From Halorientalis sp. IM1011 (lineage in GTDB: Archaea; Halobacteriota; Halobacteria; Halobacteriales; Haloarculaceae): 64,000 nt of DNA. Below the pieces are notes generated by a model, which did not search any database, was not told the origin of the DNA, and saw nothing but the letters and a program-made list of their open reading frames with translations. Where the stretch lies: assembly GCF_001989615.1 (NCBI RefSeq), contig NZ_CP019069.1, positions 1 through 64,000 of the forward strand, in the 5' to 3' direction. How positions within the stretch are numbered: position 1 is the first letter of the stretch; every line of letters begins with the position of its first letter. This document shows positions 30,570 through 40,166 of this stretch, piece after piece. The translations under genes were made by a program, and so were the position numbers.

Positions 30570-30857
30570 ATGAACGAGGACTCAGTCGATTCGGCGGACA
30601 CGAGCGACCGATCAGACGGCGGCGTCGTCGAACTCCGGCTTCGGGATTCGGTCATCGACACGACGATCACGAAGATGGAGGACCAGTTGCAGGTGGAAGT
30701 CGTCACGGAGTTCGACGACGGCACTTACGACGTCTCCACGTATCGGTTCTACCTGACGCGGGCCGACGAAGCCGTCCCGAAGTACGAGGTCGACGCGAAG
30801 TTCAGGCTGATCGTGGCCGCGAAGTTGCTGGACGAGGGCTACGACCCCGCGATGTGA
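30570..30857 (+). CDS. Hypothetical protein at the head of the PolB cassette
   Basis: 95 residues. After an acidic N-terminus the core reads VVELRLRDSVIDTTITKMED, VTEFDDGTYDVSTYRFYLTR and VDAKFRLIVAAKLLDEGYDP: a small alpha/beta protein. I do not recognise the family. It is followed 82 bp later by the RadA-like gene. The ATG at 30570 follows an AT-poor leader; the frame is open further upstream but with non-haloarchaeal composition. Confidence 0.65.
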   Translation: MNEDSVDSADTSDRSDGGVVELRLRDSVIDTTITKMEDQLQVEVVTEFDDGTYDVSTYRFYLTRADEAVPKYEVDAKFRLIVAAKLLDEGYDPAM

Positions 30858-30877
30858 CCGGCGCGACTGACCGATAC

Positions 30878-30903
30878 GAACCCGGAAATCCGGAAACACC
30901 CCT
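30878..30903 (+). promoter_or_regulatory. Shared 19-mer element upstream of the PolB cassette
   Basis: CGAACCCGGAAATCCGGAA at 30878-30896, followed by ACACCCC. The same 19-mer is found at 39092-39110 just before the orc1/cdc6 at 39156, where it is again followed by CCGGAAACACCCC. It contains a palindromic core (CCGGAAATCCGG). At both places it sits 30-80 bp before a start codon, so it may be an Orc or regulator binding site. Confidence 0.55.
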
Positions 30904-30939
30904 GCATCGCTTACGTAGCTCTCGTTCCTGGCTGCAGGT

Positions 30940-31677
30940 ATGACTCGGTCCGAGCGGATTCCGGAACTGCCGACGCTAGAGCCGGGGCTCCAGTTGCTCC
31001 AGACGGCCGACGACGAACCGCCGGTCAGGCCACTGCAGTCGCTGGTGATCGATACCCTCCTTCTGGGGCCCTCGGGCGGGACGGCCGTGTGGATCGACGC
31101 GCTCGACCACGCGCGCACGGACACACTAACGACACTCGCGCCCAGTTCGCAGATCCTGGATCGGATCCACCTGGCGCGGGGCTTTACGGCCTACCAGCAC
31201 GCAGCGATCGTCGAACGACTCTTCGAGGCGTTGCAGTCACCCACCGAGCACACGACCGACCAGCAGATCACCCCCGACGAGGTCTCGGTGATCGTCTGTC
31301 CCGCCGTCGACGCCCTCTACCGGGCCGACGACGTCGGGTCCGAGACCGCCAGAGAGTTGCTGTATCGCGTCCTCGCCCGGTTGCAGACGCTCGCCCGGCA
31401 GCTGGAGGTTCCAGTGCTGGCCTCGCAGTGGCAGCGGGATTCGCTGTCCGAGCCGTTCGCGACCGCCGCGGACGGCACGATCACGTGCCGGCGGACCGAC
31501 CACGGGCTCCGGTTCGAGACGCCCGATACGGAGACGCTGGTGTACCCCCTCGACGACGGCACCGTCCAGACGACGCTCGCCTACTGGGTCGAGATCCTCG
31601 ACGCGAGACGGCCGCTGTACGACCGGTACAGCGTCGGGACGACCGAACCGATCTCGTCGGCGACGCTGGAGGGGTGA
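30940..31677 (+). CDS. RadA/RecA-superfamily protein without Walker A
   Basis: 245 residues. The segment order is that of a RecA/RadA core: GPSGGTAVWIDALDHARTDT (strand after the P-loop), ILDRIHLARGFTAYQHAAIV, SVIVCPAVDALYRADDVG (Walker B position) and LARQLEVPVLASQWQRDSL. The region before GGTAVW is LVIDTLLLGPSG, with no GKT, so the nucleotide-binding loop is missing and the protein is probably not an ATPase. It is three bases from the next gene and belongs to one operon with the coiled-coil protein and PolB. A structural or loading role for PolB is inference. Confidence 0.7.
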   Translation: MTRSERIPELPTLEPGLQLLQTADDEPPVRPLQSLVIDTLLLGPSGGTAVWIDALDHARTDTLTTLAPSSQILDRIHLARGFTAYQHAAIVERLFEALQSPTEHTTDQQITPDEVSVIVCPAVDALYRADDVGSETARELLYRVLARLQTLARQLEVPVLASQWQRDSLSEPFATAADGTITCRRTDHGLRFETPDTETLVYPLDDGTVQTTLAYWVEILDARRPLYDRYSVGTTEPISSATLEG

Positions 31678-31680
31678 CGG

Positions 31681-32016
31681 ATGGGGCGAATGAATCCGAC
31701 GTTCCGGCGGGTCCTCGGGACGATCGAGGACAGCTGGGAGTCGTACCGGCGCGCGCTGCGCCGGCGCGACCAGCAGTACTTCGACGCGCTGTTCGAGTAC
31801 GCCAATCAGTACGCCGACGCCGCGGGCTATCTCAACCGGGACACGCCCATGATAGCCGTCCTCTTCTCCATCGCGCTCGGTCAGGAGAAACGCCGTCAGG
31901 AACTGGAGGAACGGGTGGCCAAACTGGAGGAGCAGGAGGCCGAACTGAAGGAAGAACTGGCCGAACTCGAACGACGCGTCGCCGAGTTCGAAGCGACGGG
32001 TGGTGACGATGGATAG
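31681..32016 (+). CDS. Small coiled-coil protein of the PolB operon
   Basis: 111 residues. Residues 1-60 are helical and charged (VLGTIEDSWESYRRALRRRD, YFDALFEYANQYADAAGYLN), and residues 65-105 form an uninterrupted coiled coil (ELEERVAKLEEQEAELKEEL). No enzymatic motif. It begins 4 bp after the RadA-like stop and overlaps the PolB start by 8-17 bases, so the three are co-translated. Oligomerisation is the only property I can infer. Confidence 0.7.
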   Translation: MGRMNPTFRRVLGTIEDSWESYRRALRRRDQQYFDALFEYANQYADAAGYLNRDTPMIAVLFSIALGQEKRRQELEERVAKLEEQEAELKEELAELERRVAEFEATGGDDG

Positions 32017-34171
32017 GCACGGAACCGCCGAGCGGGCGATGGAACGCGAAAGGGGGCCCCATTCGATGTTCACAGTCGACTTCCTCGACGGTCGCGTCCG
32101 CGTCTGGTCGACGACCGCGGATGGTGCCGAGTACGAGATCGACGAGGAGTACCGACCGACGCTGTACGCATCCTCGACGGCGGGCGTCGACGACCTCGCG
32201 GAGCGGGTCCGCACCCTCCCGTACGTCGACCGCGTCGCGATCGAGCGATACCGGACCGCGTTCAGGAACGACCCGGAGCGGGTCGTCCGGATCGACGTCG
32301 AACGCATCGACGACGTGCGGCAGGCGGCGACGCGCCTGCGCCGCTGGGGCGACCCGGGCGAGTGCAGGCTCTACAACGTCGACTTCTCGCCGGAGTTCCG
32401 GTACTGCCTGGAGACAGGTACCTGCCCGGCACCGGACCGGGACCTCACGACGCTCGAACTCGCCGTCGACCCGGTCGCACTGGCCAACGACGACCTGCGC
32501 ACGGTCCGGATCGACGGGGAGTCACACGGCGGCTCGATCCCCGAGGTTCTCGAGACGATCCACGCTCGCGTCCGGACGGTCGACCCGGACGTCCTCGTGC
32601 TGAGCTCCGGGGACATCGTCCCGACGGTGTACGAACTGGCCGACGAACACGACCTGGACGTGACGCTCGGTCGCGAACCCGGGTGGCAGCGACTCGCCGC
32701 CGAGTCGACCTACACCAGTTACGGACGGGTCGGCCACTCGCCCGCCCGGTACAACCTCCCCGGCCGCGTCATCGTCGATACGTCGAACACGTTCTTCTAC
32801 ACCGAGACGAACCTGCAGGGGTGTCTCGACCTCGTCGGCCGGTCGTGGAAACCCCTCCAGGAGTTGTCGTGGGCGTCGATCGGGAACGTCCTGACCGCGA
32901 TGCAGATCCGGGAGGCGCTGGCCCGGGGCGTCCTCGTCCCGTGGAAGTCCTGGCGGCCGGAGCAGTTCAAGACGGCGCGACAGTTACACGCGGCCGACCG
33001 CGGCGGGTTCACCTTCTCGCCCGACGTCGGCGTGCACGAGGGGGTCCACGAACTGGACTTCAGTTCGCTCTACCCGAACATCATCCGCGAGTACAACGTC
33101 TCGCCGGACAAGATCCGGTGTGACTGCCACGCCGCCCGCGAGGACGTCCCCGGGCTCGGATACGCGATCTGTGACGAGCAGGGGTATCTCGCCGACGTGC
33201 TCGGGCCGCTGATCGACGACCGGGACGCGATCAAAGCGGAGATCGAGGCGGCGACGGATCCCGAGCGGATCCGCGAACTGGAGGGGAGATCGGGCGCGAT
33301 CAAGTGGATCCTGGTCTCCTGTTTCGGTTATCAGGGGTTCTCCAACGCGAAGTTCGGTCGGATCGAGTGCCACGAGGCGATCAACGCGTTCGCGCGGGAG
33401 ATCCTCCTCGACGCGAAGGCAGCCCTCGAAGCCGGCGGCTGGCGGGTAGTCCACGGGATCGTCGACAGTATCTGGGTCACCGCCCGGGAGGGCGAGTCCC
33501 AGCGGCCGCTCACCGAGATCGCGTCGGAGATCACGGCCGAGGCCGGCATCCGACTGGAGTACGAGGGCGAGTACGACTGGATCGCGTTCGTCCCACGGCG
33601 CGACAGCGACGTCGGCGCGCTGACGAAGTACTTCGGGAAAGTCGCGGGCGAATCCGACTACAAGTACAGAGGGATCGAGTGTCGCCAGCGGAGTACGCCG
33701 GAGTACGTCGCCGACGTGCAGACGGATCTGATCGAGGTGTTCGAACGGCACCGCTCGCCCGAGCCCGTCTGTGATCGGTTGGCGGCCGAACTCGACCGCC
33801 TGCAGGGCGGGGGCGTCGATCCGGAACGGCTGGTCATCGACAAGCGTACTTCGAAGCGTGTCGACGAATACGGGCAGTACACCCGGACCGTCTCGGCGCT
33901 GGAACGGACGGCCGATCAGGGCCGGGATCTACACCCCGGACAGCACGTGGCGTACGTCGTGGTCGACGATTCGAAGTCCTCGCGCGAGCGAGTCACGCTG
34001 GCGTCGGAATCGCCCGAGGAGTACGACCCCGACTTCTACGGCGACCTGCTGGTCCGGGCGGCCGAAAGCGTGCTGTCGCCGATCGGCTGGCGAAGGGACG
34101 ACATCGGGGAGTATCTGGCGTCGACGAACGAGACGACGTTGACGCGGTTCAGCGGACCGACTCGAACGTGA
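32009..34171 (+). CDS. Family B DNA polymerase, probably degenerate
   Basis: About 720 residues, no intein. Motif A is VHELDFSSLYPNIIREYNVS with the catalytic Asp. Motif B is GAIKWILVSCFGYQGFSNA: the lysine is kept but the usual NSxYG is SCFG. Motif C is VVHGIVDSIWV in place of YGDTDS, keeping the second Asp and losing the first. The exonuclease motifs are lost (LTTLELAVD where DIE is expected, and SSGDIVPTVYEL). A thumb-like end reads YDPDFYGDLLVRAAESVLSP. It is therefore probably a proofreading-deficient and perhaps weak or inactive polymerase. It ends the RadA-like/coiled-coil/PolB operon; ATG 32009 was taken as start, with 32066 as an alternative. Confidence 0.8.
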   Translation: MDRHGTAERAMERERGPHSMFTVDFLDGRVRVWSTTADGAEYEIDEEYRPTLYASSTAGVDDLAERVRTLPYVDRVAIERYRTAFRNDPERVVRIDVERIDDVRQAATRLRRWGDPGECRLYNVDFSPEFRYCLETGTCPAPDRDLTTLELAVDPVALANDDLRTVRIDGESHGGSIPEVLETIHARVRTVDPDVLVLSSGDIVPTVYELADEHDLDVTLGREPGWQRLAAESTYTSYGRVGHSPARYNLPGRVIVDTSNTFFYTETNLQGCLDLVGRSWKPLQELSWASIGNVLTAMQIREALARGVLVPWKSWRPEQFKTARQLHAADRGGFTFSPDVGVHEGVHELDFSSLYPNIIREYNVSPDKIRCDCHAAREDVPGLGYAICDEQGYLADVLGPLIDDRDAIKAEIEAATDPERIRELEGRSGAIKWILVSCFGYQGFSNAKFGRIECHEAINAFAREILLDAKAALEAGGWRVVHGIVDSIWVTAREGESQRPLTEIASEITAEAGIRLEYEGEYDWIAFVPRRDSDVGALTKYFGKVAGESDYKYRGIECRQRSTPEYVADVQTDLIEVFERHRSPEPVCDRLAAELDRLQGGGVDPERLVIDKRTSKRVDEYGQYTRTVSALERTADQGRDLHPGQHVAYVVVDDSKSSRERVTLASESPEEYDPDFYGDLLVRAAESVLSPIGWRRDDIGEYLASTNETTLTRFSGPTRT

Positions 34172-34685
34172 ACGACGTGTCCGGGCGGATGCGGCCGGCG
34201 GCGTCTGGCTGGACGTCGGAGATCTCCACGCAGGGCGGATCGGACGGACTGATAGCGAACAGCGGGATGACGTCGCCGGTGAAGATGGCGCGGTCACAGA
34301 GCGTACTCCGGATCTCGGGGAGCGCGCCGTCGGCCCGCGGCTCGGACGCACCGGCACGGTATCGCAGTCGGACGTCCGACGCGGGTTCGATCCGCGCCGG
34401 TTCGATGGTGACGGACTCGCCGAGTTCCACGCCGGCGTTTTTCCGGAGGACTTCGTCCATGTAGATCCGGCCGGAGTGCCAGTCGTCGGGGTCTGAGTGT
34501 TCGACGCGAGCGTAGGTGATTTCGGTGCCCTGAATCTCGATCGGGTCTCCGGGGCGCTGTCCGATGTGTAACAGCGACGGGGCACCGACGAGCGCGGACT
34601 GGCCCCGCCCCTCGGCGAGCGGGCGATTTTCGACTTTGAGTCTGACACCCCGACGTCGACGTGATCGAATCCGGCTACTGGTCAT
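34149..34685 (-). CDS. Free-standing Cdc48/VCP N-domain protein
   Basis: 178 residues. It matches the N-terminal substrate-binding region of archaeal Cdc48 ATPases: a double-psi barrel (RLKVENRPLAEGRGQSALVG, GQRPGDPIEIQGTEITYARV, GRIYMDEVLRKNAGVELGES, VTIEPARIEPASDVRL) followed by the Cdc48_2-type domain (RAIFTGDVIPLFAIS). The AAA+ ATPase modules that should follow are absent: the protein stops at FTFESVR. It overlaps the PolB 3' end by 23 bp tail to tail. It could act as an adaptor or competitor for Cdc48 substrates; this is inference. An Arg-rich 14-residue leader precedes the barrel. Confidence 0.8.
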   Translation of the reverse strand: MTSSRIRSRRRRGVRLKVENRPLAEGRGQSALVGAPSLLHIGQRPGDPIEIQGTEITYARVEHSDPDDWHSGRIYMDEVLRKNAGVELGESVTIEPARIEPASDVRLRYRAGASEPRADGALPEIRSTLCDRAIFTGDVIPLFAISPSDPPCVEISDVQPDAAGRIRPDTSFTFESVR

Positions 34686-36468: not shown

Positions 36469-37770
36469 ATGACCGACCCTCCGGAGGAGATCACGGTTAC
36501 CGTCGACGGAGGGACACTGCCGGTCGTCGACCTCCTGACCGGCCGGGGATTCATCACCGGCAAGTCGGGGTCGGGAAAGTCGATGACGGCGAGCGTTATC
36601 GTGGAGGAACTGCTCGAACACGACCTGAGTTTTCTCATCGTCGACACCGACGGCGAGTACTACGGGCTGAAAGAGCAGTACGAGGTCCTCCACGTCGGCG
36701 CCGACGACACCTGTGACGCGACGGTCGGTATCGAACACGCCGAATTACTCGCCACGCTGGCGCTGGAAGAGGACGTCCCGATCGTTCTGGACGTCTCGGG
36801 CTACCTCGACGAAGCGCGGGTCAACGACCTCCTCGAAGCCGTCGTCCGGGAACTGTTCGTCCGGGAGAAGAAACTGAAGCAACCGTTCCTCCTCTTCGTC
36901 GAGGAGGCACACGAGTACCTCCCCGAATCCGGCGGCCTCGACGACCTCGGTGAACGGTTGCTCCAGGTCGCAAAGCGCGGCCGTAAGCGGGGCCTCGGGA
37001 TCTGTGCCATCTCGCAGCGGCCGGCGGCGGTCGACAAGGACTACATCACCCAGTGTAACTGGATCGTCTGGCACCGACTCACCTGGAACAACGACACCGA
37101 CGTCGTCCGGCGGATCATCGACGCGGACGCCGCCGAGAGCGTCGAGACGCTCGAGAACGGTGAAGCGATCCTCATGACCGACTGGGACGAACGGGTCCGG
37201 CGCGTGCAGTTCCGCATGCGCGAGACCGTCGACGTCGGCCAGACGCCCGACTTCTCGGAGGCGTCGGTGCCCGACCTGAAACCGATCGACTCCTCGATCG
37301 TCGACCGGATCGAGGCGGTCAGTCCGTGGGACACGGCGGGCGAACCGGACACGGGCGAACCGGCGAACTCGGACGACGGGTCGGATAGCTCCGACGAACA
37401 CGACGACGCGGGAACGGAGACGGAGACACAGACGGAGTCGGACGGGTCGACGGGGACCGCCGACGATTCGCGGACGTCGACCCGGTCGGCGACGGATTCG
37501 AACCACGGAACTGCAGCGGGTTCGAACCACGGGACGCGCGACCACCTGTTGCTCGAACTCGGCGACATGATGGTGTACCTCTTCGGGGTGCTACACAGCA
37601 AGGGCGTCCGGGTGACGGACTCGGTCCGGCATCGGATCCGGAGTACTGCCGGGCCGGAGTCCAGTGGGCGGACGGCGTCGACGGCTCGGACGGGGCCGCT
37701 GTCCCATCGCCTGCTGTTCGTCGCGCTGGCGGTTCTCGGCGTGTTGCTCGTGGCCGTGTTGATTCTGTGA
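36469..37770 (+). CDS. HerA-like P-loop ATPase with a C-terminal membrane anchor
   Basis: 433 residues. Residues 10-280 form a DUF87/HerA-type ATPase: Walker A in FITGKSGSGKSMTAS, an LIVDTDGEYYGL strand, Walker B in LLFVEEAHEYLPES, and an arginine-rich ICAISQRPAAVDKDYITQC segment. Residues 285-355 are a low-complexity Asp/Ser/Thr linker with repeated SNHGT. The protein ends in a single hydrophobic helix (LLFVALAVLGVLLVAVLIL), so it is probably tail-anchored. HerA-like enzymes move DNA or work with NurA; no nurA is nearby. A membrane-bound DNA-translocating role is inference. Confidence 0.85.
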   Translation: MTDPPEEITVTVDGGTLPVVDLLTGRGFITGKSGSGKSMTASVIVEELLEHDLSFLIVDTDGEYYGLKEQYEVLHVGADDTCDATVGIEHAELLATLALEEDVPIVLDVSGYLDEARVNDLLEAVVRELFVREKKLKQPFLLFVEEAHEYLPESGGLDDLGERLLQVAKRGRKRGLGICAISQRPAAVDKDYITQCNWIVWHRLTWNNDTDVVRRIIDADAAESVETLENGEAILMTDWDERVRRVQFRMRETVDVGQTPDFSEASVPDLKPIDSSIVDRIEAVSPWDTAGEPDTGEPANSDDGSDSSDEHDDAGTETETQTESDGSTGTADDSRTSTRSATDSNHGTAAGSNHGTRDHLLLELGDMMVYLFGVLHSKGVRVTDSVRHRIRSTAGPESSGRTASTARTGPLSHRLLFVALAVLGVLLVAVLIL

Positions 37771-38389: not shown

Positions 38390-39155
38390 CTCCGTGGGCT
38401 GAACGCTGTCCGTGGACAGCGCCGTGGGCGACTCCGTCAGATACGCACGTGGTTTCGATCATTGTTGGTTCGTTCGGGTCGGCATCACCGGAGCGAAAGC
38501 GATGCCTCTGACCGGGGAAACGCTTTTACCCACGATGGGAGAAGGACGTGATGTTCCACCAACCCGTCCTTCTGACGTAGTTTCCCCTAGCGAGAGCTAC
38601 AGAGAACCTACAGCCGAATTAATATTGTGCTGTAATTACAATATATCTTAATTATGAACGGTGAGGGGACGTCTGCTCGGGACGAACCGCACGACGGCGT
38701 CGGCTCTGTACGACAGAACGGCGCGAACGAACGTATAAAGCGATCCGATATTTGCCGATAAACTAAGATAGCTGACACTCGTCGAGCGGTGAAATACTGG
38801 CCGTCGTCGGGGCATGACCGGCGTGTCGGACCTGCGACGTTACCGAGTCGTTAGATAATTTTTCTGCCACAGTTTCGACTCGACACGTGGAGAACGAGCG
38901 GTGAAGGGGTCCCGGCCGGTCGGCCCGATAACACTCGAAACGGAACTGTGAAACGAACCTACCGTATTTCTATCGGAGAGTGCAAGTACCCGGAACGGTA
39001 CCGGAACGAACTCGGACGGTATCCGGCCGGTCAGTGCAGGAATCGCGTGATGCCAGCCGAATACGGGCGGCTCGGGACCGGGACGGGCCCCCGAACCCGG
39101 AAATCCGGAAGTTCCGGAAACACCCCGGGTAGATATTTCGTCCCCACGACCGAAC
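38390..39155. other. Intergenic region before orc1/cdc6 at 39.2 kb
   Basis: Holds an AT-rich patch (38610-38660, 38740-38775), a half ORB ACACTCGAAACGG at 38931-38943 that matches the 28- and 42-kb ORBs, and the 19-mer shared with the PolB cassette at 39092-39110. No coding frame I can support. Confidence 0.5.
39092..39129 (+). promoter_or_regulatory. Shared 19-mer and CCGGAAACACCCC element before orc1/cdc6
   Basis: CGAACCCGGAAATCCGGAA at 39092-39110 and TCCGGAAACACCCCGGG at 39113-39129 lie 27-64 bp before the ATG at 39156. The same block is at 30878-30903. It is probably an operator or a small ORB for this Orc protein. Confidence 0.55.
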
Positions 39156-40166
39156 ATGACCAGTGTGATACAGAACGCGCGGGTGTTGCAGGACGATTTC
39201 CTCCCGAAGGAGATCGTCCACCGACACGAGGCGGTGAACCAGATGTCGAAGGCGCTGGAACCGGTCCTGGAGGACGACCGGCCACAGGACACGTTCCTCG
39301 TGGGTCCGTCCGGTGCCGGGAAGACCTGTATCGCCCGGTATACGGTCGATCAGTTACAGGAACAGGTGCTGGACATCAAGAGCCACTACATCGACTGCTG
39401 GCAACACTCGAATCGATTCCGCGTTCTGTACAAGATCCTCGAGGGTGTCAAGACCTCCTACGACATCCATCGGTCGACGCCGGAAGACGAGATGATCGCA
39501 CGGATCCAGAGCGTCGACAGTCCGTACCTGCTCATCCTCGACGAGGTCGACCAGCTCGACGACATGGAGGTGCTCCGGAAGCTCTACCCGATGCCGCACA
39601 TCACGATGGTGCTGATCGCGAACCGCCGGGAGGAGGTCCTCTCCACGCTCGACGAACGGTTGCAGTCGCGACTCCGCAGCAGCGTGACGATCAGGTTCGA
39701 TCGGTACACCCAGGCGGAACTGGTGTCGTTGCTCGACGACCGGATCACGTGGGGGCTGGCCCCGGACACGATCACGACCGACCAGGTCCACCGCATCGCC
39801 GACGTCGCCGCCGGGAACGCCAGGGACGCGATCAGCATCCTCCGCTCGGCCGCTCGCAACGCCGACCACGAGGGGGCGTCCGAGATCCGCGACAGCGACA
39901 TCAGTTCGGCCATCCCGGCCGCTCGCGAGGAACTCCACGAGCAGAACCTGAAAAAGCTGAACGAGGACCAGCACGCGGTCTACGACATCCTGACCGACGA
40001 AGGCGAACTCCCACCCAACGAGATCTACGATCTGTACGCGGACCGCGTGTCCGAGCCGAAGACGAAACGGACCGTCCGCACCTATCTGCGAAAACTCGAA
40101 GATTACGACCTCGTCCGGGCCACCGGGAACGGCCCGAATCGAACCTACGAGGCGCGAGATCGGTGA
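39156..40166 (+). CDS. Orc1/Cdc6-type replication initiator
   Basis: 336 residues, on the short side for the family. Walker A is FLVGPSGAGKTCIARYT, Walker B LLILDEVDQLDDME, sensor 1 ITMVLIANRREEVL and sensor 2 region GNARDAISILRSAARNA. A C-terminal winged helix (HAVYDILTDEGELPPNEIYD) completes it. It binds origin repeats and loads MCM. The N-terminal segment VIQNARVLQDDFLPKEIVHR is the divergent type seen in accessory Orcs of plasmids. It is the first of two orc genes in this block, convergent with the one at 42 kb, with a HalOD1 gene between. Confidence 0.92.
   Translation: MTSVIQNARVLQDDFLPKEIVHRHEAVNQMSKALEPVLEDDRPQDTFLVGPSGAGKTCIARYTVDQLQEQVLDIKSHYIDCWQHSNRFRVLYKILEGVKTSYDIHRSTPEDEMIARIQSVDSPYLLILDEVDQLDDMEVLRKLYPMPHITMVLIANRREEVLSTLDERLQSRLRSSVTIRFDRYTQAELVSLLDDRITWGLAPDTITTDQVHRIADVAAGNARDAISILRSAARNADHEGASEIRDSDISSAIPAAREELHEQNLKKLNEDQHAVYDILTDEGELPPNEIYDLYADRVSEPKTKRTVRTYLRKLEDYDLVRATGNGPNRTYEARDR

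Follow-up and report, generated by a model that had tools for sequence, protein, structure and literature searches.

Haloarchaea are known to carry an operon that joins an inactivated RadA (arCOG07763) to arCOG07300 and an inactivated PolB2, often with arORC2 nearby (Makarova, Krupovic and Koonin 2014, PMC4104785), and a computed model of the mutasome comprises one PolB2, one iRadA and three PPB2 subunits (Timinskas et al. 2025, PMC11791011). In Sulfolobus, Dpo2/PolB2 shows the YxDTD-to-HxxxD change characteristic of PolB2 (Feng et al. 2022, PMC8764526), and the Orc1/Cdc6 paralogue Orc1-2, which binds its own promoter at the DDRE (ANTTTC), is required for Dpo2 to be induced by damage (PMC9738581). 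Here we describe an iRadA–PPB2–PolB2 operon, and an Orc1/Cdc6 paralogue (ORC2) downstream of it, in a 64,000-base stretch of haloarchaeal DNA—the window, bases 1–64000 of the 120.6-kb contig C3 in a three-contig genome of 3.78 Mb—together with their relatives in Halobacteria.

The cassette is already known, and most of what had made it surprising to the first-pass annotation of this DNA is explained away. The new part is a tandem CGGAA promoter element that the operon shares with the Orc1/Cdc6 paralogue and that is worth following up.

A tandem CGGAA element before iRadA and ORC2

The features concerned lie in the window as follows:
30570–30857, + strand: small open reading frame (ORF), 95 amino acids, outside the conserved cassette; present in 3 of 116 family genomes and at 1 of 40 PolB2 loci
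30882–30902, + strand: tandem GGAA promoter element of the PolB2 operon, CCGGAAATCCGGAAACACCCC, a pattern seen upstream of iRadA across loci
30910–30915, + strand: predicted TATA-like box, CTTACG (consensus TTTAT/CTTAT), 30 bp upstream of the iRadA ATG
30940–31677, + strand: iRadA, RadA/Rad51-fold protein lacking Walker A, 245 amino acids, from profile and AlphaFold2/Foldseek matches
31681–32016, + strand: PPB2, small helical/coiled-coil protein of arCOG07300 type, 111 amino acids, with an N-terminal MGR arm
32066–34171, + strand: PolB2, Dpo2-type family B DNA polymerase with an inactive exonuclease domain, from NF004418, AlphaFold2 and motifs
39098–39126, + strand: triple GGAA promoter element of the Orc1/Cdc6 paralogue, CGGAAATCCGGAAGTTCCGGAAACACCCC
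39156–40166, + strand: ORC2, Orc1/Cdc6 paralogue, AAA+ with a Cdc6 lid, 336 amino acids, proposed regulator of the PolB2 operon

We compared the 150 bp upstream of iRadA across PolB2 loci, drawn from a sample of 40 loci from ~30 haloarchaeal genera with a fetched span of 11.6 kb each, and found a tandem repeat with the consensus tttCGGAAnntcCGGAAnC, followed, about 30 bp before the iRadA ATG, by a TTTAT/CTTAT box. Of 39 loci, 29 match the strict pattern YGGAA-N3,4-YGGAA, and 33 match when the pattern is loosened. The same element precedes ORC2 in 26 of 30 promoters (24 of them strict), against a background of 3.75% of random 220-bp stretches from the same loci; the window copy is the triple repeat just upstream of the 39156 start. 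In both the iRadA and ORC2 sets the start codon mostly follows the second GGAA by 49–53 bp, and both promoter profiles conserve the position and TTA core of the TATA-like box. Among 297 other long ORFs near these loci four are preceded by the element, two of which are ORC2 genes themselves and two orthologous exonuclease-like genes.

The window ORC2 scores 175 bits against TIGR02928, just under the cut-off of 181, and matches both AAA+ and PF22703 (Cdc6_lid); it is likely a member of the published arORC2 family. An ortholog occurs in 37 of the 38 PolB2 genomes examined, the single exception (G137) being a genome whose PolB2 lacks iRadA and PPB2 as well, and in 28 of the 40 loci ORC2 falls within the fetched span, usually directly upstream of iRadA and co-oriented with it. 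Across a survey of 391 sampled Halobacteria genomes, 254 of which have PolB2, 204 carry both genes, 50 PolB2 only, 51 ORC2 only and 86 neither (Fisher p 2.7e-17, uncorrected for phylogeny). The shared element, the adjacency, the co-occurrence and the persistence of the element at 15 of 20 ORC2 loci in genomes that lack PolB2 together lead us to infer that ORC2 regulates the PolB2 operon. On this proposal, which we consider moderately probable, ORC2 would bind the tandem CGGAA before the nearby iRadA gene and would regulate itself through the copy that precedes its own gene; damage would then raise both the regulator and the PolB2 mutasome, as Orc1-2 does in Sulfolobus.

A tandem repeat beside an orc gene might instead mark a replication origin: haloarchaeal origins usually adjoin orc/cdc6 genes and can hold GGAAAC-type boxes. 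The element, however, stands at a constant spacing ahead of two different start codons and has a TATA-like box beside it; where ORC2 and iRadA adjoin, each of the two promoters usually has the element, iRadA retaining a copy of its own; and it is absent from all seven other Orc1/Cdc6 loci of the window genome. An origin is accordingly a very improbable account of the repeat.

A weightier alternative is that CGGAA is read by another factor, such as an alternative transcription factor B (TFB) or some other regulator, ORC2 being a co-regulated member rather than the regulator. In both promoters the element directly precedes the TATA-like box, a place where contact by TFB at a B recognition element would be possible, and PolB2 genomes without ORC2 exist. 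Against this, the element stays with ORC2 where PolB2 is absent, as autoregulation predicts; a published haloarchaeal origin recognition box (ORB), TAACAGCGGAAACAGTGGGG..., contains CGGAAAC (PMC3528665) and so shares that core with the element here, the window iRadA promoter lacking the G-string; and in Sulfolobus, Dpo2 induction requires Orc1-2, which also binds the promoter of its own gene (PMC9738581). We therefore regard another reader of the element as possible yet doubtful.

Several observations weigh against control by ORC2. Close ORC2 homologues are missing from 50 of the 254 PolB2 genomes, a few PolB2 loci lack the strict element, and at one locus (L203) the only ORC is distant and the element is absent. 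Conversely, 51 genomes have ORC2 but no PolB2, and in these the element usually still precedes ORC2, so ORC2 probably controls more than the PolB2 operon. The prediction that PolB2 genomes without ORC2 should lack the element had a mixed outcome: besides L203, the seven fetched PolB2 loci without a close ORC2 include three with no detectable iRadA, two with a degenerate or weak repeat (L204 and L205) and one (L207) in which a distant ORC and iRadA are both preceded by a variant repeat.

ORC2 control of the operon could extend to a wider, SOS-like haloarchaeal regulon, in which ORC2, a protein unrelated to LexA, would autoregulate via tandem CGGAA and switch on the PolB2 mutasome and, in some genomes, a stand-alone exonuclease as well; we put this only slightly above an even chance. 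A search of the haloarchaeal regulation literature, with most subscription journals outside its reach, found no description of the CGGAA element, and the sharing of it is apparently unreported before.

Genome-wide, CGGAA gave 34 hits, most of them in coding frames and chance-like. Besides the two window sites, two promoter-like copies precede small uncharacterised ORFs in the same genome, at C1:943089(-) (L107) and C1:2554443(+) (L119), the latter beside a VapBC-like pair; both sites are possible further members of the regulon.

The exonuclease-like genes encode a stand-alone RNase H-like/PolB-exonuclease-like protein (PF13482) with the motifs FDxETTGF and NGExxxGGFDLPFL, found near PolB2 or ORC2 at L052:1602-2291(-), L071:2182-2865(-), L077:7033-7674(-) and, close to its ORC2, in L200. 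The CGGAA repeat lies at about −61 of the gene in L052 and L071, and in L077 the gene is inside the operon, between PPB2 and PolB2. The protein might provide in trans the exonuclease that PolB2 itself has lost; it has no match in the 64-kb window.

The polymerase and its partners

The first-pass annotation had seen three tightly packed genes here, and iRadA, PPB2 and PolB2 do form such a unit at 30940–34171. Their order is kept across the sampled loci, with iRadA in 38 of 40 and PPB2 in 39 of 40, so that the trio stays together rather than being found apart in most relatives; iRadA and PPB2 usually overlap by 14 bp, and in the window a 3-bp gap separates them (iRadA ends at 31677, PPB2 starts at 31681). 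All three genes are under purifying selection, as judged by the ratio of nonsynonymous to synonymous change (dN/dS; NG86, nearest relative): 0.14/0.64 (~0.21) for PolB2, 0.22/0.65 (~0.34) for iRadA and 0.32/1.02 (~0.32) for PPB2. A search for a second iRadA or PPB2 copy in the same genome found none. Elsewhere, locus L043 (G325 C4:118724-130326) holds a second PolB2 copy that has a PPB2 without the MGRT arm and no detectable iRadA, and a complete copy of the operon (L044) lies on the same contig.

The gene at 30570–30857, which the annotation had counted as a fourth, preceding member of the cassette, does not belong to it: the three family genomes that carry it are all of one genus, and it is excluded from the operon because of this restriction and because it lies upstream of the operon's own promoter element. 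Its dN/dS of ~0.4 suggests a real gene, and it has a sub-threshold match to Imm10 (E 0.004).

PolB2 scores 1053 bits against NF004418 (curated cut-off 692), and its AlphaFold2 model (pLDDT, the predicted local distance difference test score, 85.3) matches archaeal family B polymerases in Foldseek with E 7e-39. The ATG at 32066, where the match to the family sets in, is preferred as the start; the listed GTG at 32000 is probably too early, although in-frame upstream starts at 32000 or 32009 are possible. The same genome has a separate intact PolB, with YGDTDS and a C-terminal QTGLGNF tail of PCNA type, and a separate RadA above its cut-off, indicating that PolB2 is not the replicase.

Two features reported at first reading are borne out: the Exo motifs are unrecognisable in a HMMER alignment to archaeal PolB, and YGDTDS has given way to HGIVDS in motif C, with H[GA]IVDS[LIV]W in 41 of 41 relatives. 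What does not hold is that all three proteins lost catalytic residues together, for the PPB2 family is without known catalysis and PolB2 keeps its metal-ligand carboxylates. Alignment with Pyrococcus abyssi PolB sets Y-I-D-T-D against H-G-I-V-D, so that the second Asp of DTD is kept and the first is Ile; motif A, ELDFSSLYP, likewise retains its Asp, and the combination of motif A with HxxxD holds in 41 of 41 sequences. Across the haloarchaeal PolB2s sampled, no variation is seen at the motif A Asp, the motif B Lys or the His and second Asp of motif C, nor, in 28 aligned sequences, at D311 and R312 of the ADRGG loop before motif A.

The second motif C Asp is the metal ligand and the first is not, and Sulfolobus Dpo2, an enzyme without proofreading, is roughly the equal of the replicase Dpo1 at incorporating nucleotides and can elongate from mismatches and from lesion termini (PMC8764526). 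Given the retained second Asp and the activity of a Sulfolobus enzyme with the same motif, the window PolB2 is probably active rather than dead. We are fairly confident that the cassette is a haloarchaeal PolB2 translesion-synthesis operon, its polymerase most likely a functional, proofreading-free extender with iRadA and PPB2 as partners. PolB2 would extend mismatched or lesion-terminated primers; iRadA would be a non-ATPase RadA relative that binds PolB2 via a Rad51-like oligomerisation contact; and PPB2 would form a trimeric helical spacer whose N-terminal MGR arm reaches between PolB2, iRadA and DNA. For the window genome, activity is read across from Sulfolobus and complex formation from the published model.

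The contrary reading, in which a fully inactivated polymerase and an inactivated RadA have a scaffolding role, structural or regulatory, at forks or origins, was in essence that of the first-pass annotation, and was put forward in print before the biochemistry was done (PMC4104785). The first motif C Asp is indeed lost, the exonuclease dead and iRadA devoid of a P-loop, and the conserved trio has been modelled as a complex; this much of the earlier view survives. Loss of the polymerase does not, in that Sulfolobus Dpo2, with the same HxxxD, is about as active in primer extension as the replicase, and a pure scaffold would not need the invariant motif A Asp, motif B Lys and second motif C Asp. 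We judge the scaffold improbable. Nor is the idea of an unusual inactivated complex new: it was published in 2014 (PMC4104785) and later revised. Certain points nonetheless tell against an active haloarchaeal PolB2: literature searches for an assay of the enzyme and for post-damage expression data on haloarchaeal polB2 found none, and the Haloferax volcanii gene is described only as deletable and its product as predicted inactive (PMC7776575).

Recruitment of an active PolB2 to the clamp may depend on its tail. A degenerate LxxF/Y/W occurs in the last 14 residues of 39 of 41 haloarchaeal PolB2s, at the same place as the PolB tail, and a narrower pattern in 29 of 38 tails against 40 of 413 background frames; this is likely a weak clamp-binding motif, through which PolB2 would be recruited by PCNA. 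A PCNA motif in iRadA was also considered and found unsupported in haloarchaea (QxxLxxF in the last 30 residues of 1 of 38), leaving the PolB2 tail as the better candidate.

That iRadA is a RecA/RadA-fold protein without a P-loop is upheld. A search for Walker A, GxxxxGK[ST], found none, and single-sequence family searches are weak: E 0.016 for Pfam Rad51 and E 2.6e-4 for TIGR02236, far under cut-offs (for TIGR02236, 20.5 bits against 361), so that iRadA does not qualify as an active RadA/Rad51 recombinase. A profile built from 32 relatives, by contrast, finds RadA/Rad51 structures with E 8e-12, and Foldseek pairs the AlphaFold2 model (pLDDT 85.5) with RadA ATPase domains at E 2.6e-11. The small coiled-coil protein is PPB2, which begins MGRMNPTFRR here and MGRTNPTYRD in relatives (MGRT in most), with G2, R3 and R9 conserved in at least 90% of them.

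Outside haloarchaea, Leptospira LE1-type phages (KF114879.1 and others, L083) encode a family B polymerase 31–32% identical to the window PolB2, and ahead of it lie two small hypothetical genes, perhaps iRadA-like and PPB2-like; these were the only phages matched, and no haloviral PolB2 was found. Around the window operon, a stand-alone CDC48 N-terminal domain (PF02359, E 3.7e-14) without AAA domains is encoded at 34149–34685 on the − strand, convergent with polB2, and a HerA/DUF87-like ATPase with a C-terminal hydrophobic segment at 36469–37770 on the + strand. Contig C3 carries four Orc1/Cdc6 homologues and is for that reason probably a secondary replicon.

Relation to described systems

To our knowledge, control of the DNA-damage response in haloarchaea and other euryarchaea is poorly understood, and Orc1-2 of the Sulfolobales is the only well-described archaeal regulator of this kind that we found in the literature searched. 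The shared element points to a specific, testable candidate switch for the damage response of haloarchaea, which are genetically tractable. If ORC2 does act through it, this would be a counterpart of the Orc1-2 response outside the Sulfolobales, with a different operator, and would support the idea that more than one archaeal lineage has turned initiator proteins into regulators of the damage response.

The operon of Makarova et al. (PMC4104785) has the same three gene families and the same type of neighbour as the window; that paper takes the polymerase as inactive and, in the portion considered here, describes no promoter element. With the mutasome of Timinskas et al. (PMC11791011) the window shares the order iRadA–PPB2–PolB2, the MGR arm with Arg3 and Arg9, an Asp-Lys/Arg loop before motif A, the loss of the first motif C Asp and a decayed exonuclease. 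Those authors report PCNA-binding motifs in a small fraction of PolB2s, whereas the degenerate LxxF/Y/W tail is near-universal in the haloarchaeal proteins; they also find orc1/cdc6 enriched near archaeal polB2, their main text being silent on promoters.

The Sulfolobus comparison joins the two halves of the locus. HxxxD in motif C is common to Dpo2 (PMC8764526) and the window PolB2, and, as in the Orc1-2 regulon (PMC9738581), where a damage-responsive Orc1/Cdc6 paralogue binds its own promoter and controls Dpo2, the putative haloarchaeal regulator and the PolB2 operon share a promoter element. That element is not the Sulfolobus ANTTTC but a conserved tandem CGGAA repeat, whose predicted function would make ORC2 the haloarchaeal counterpart of Orc1-2.

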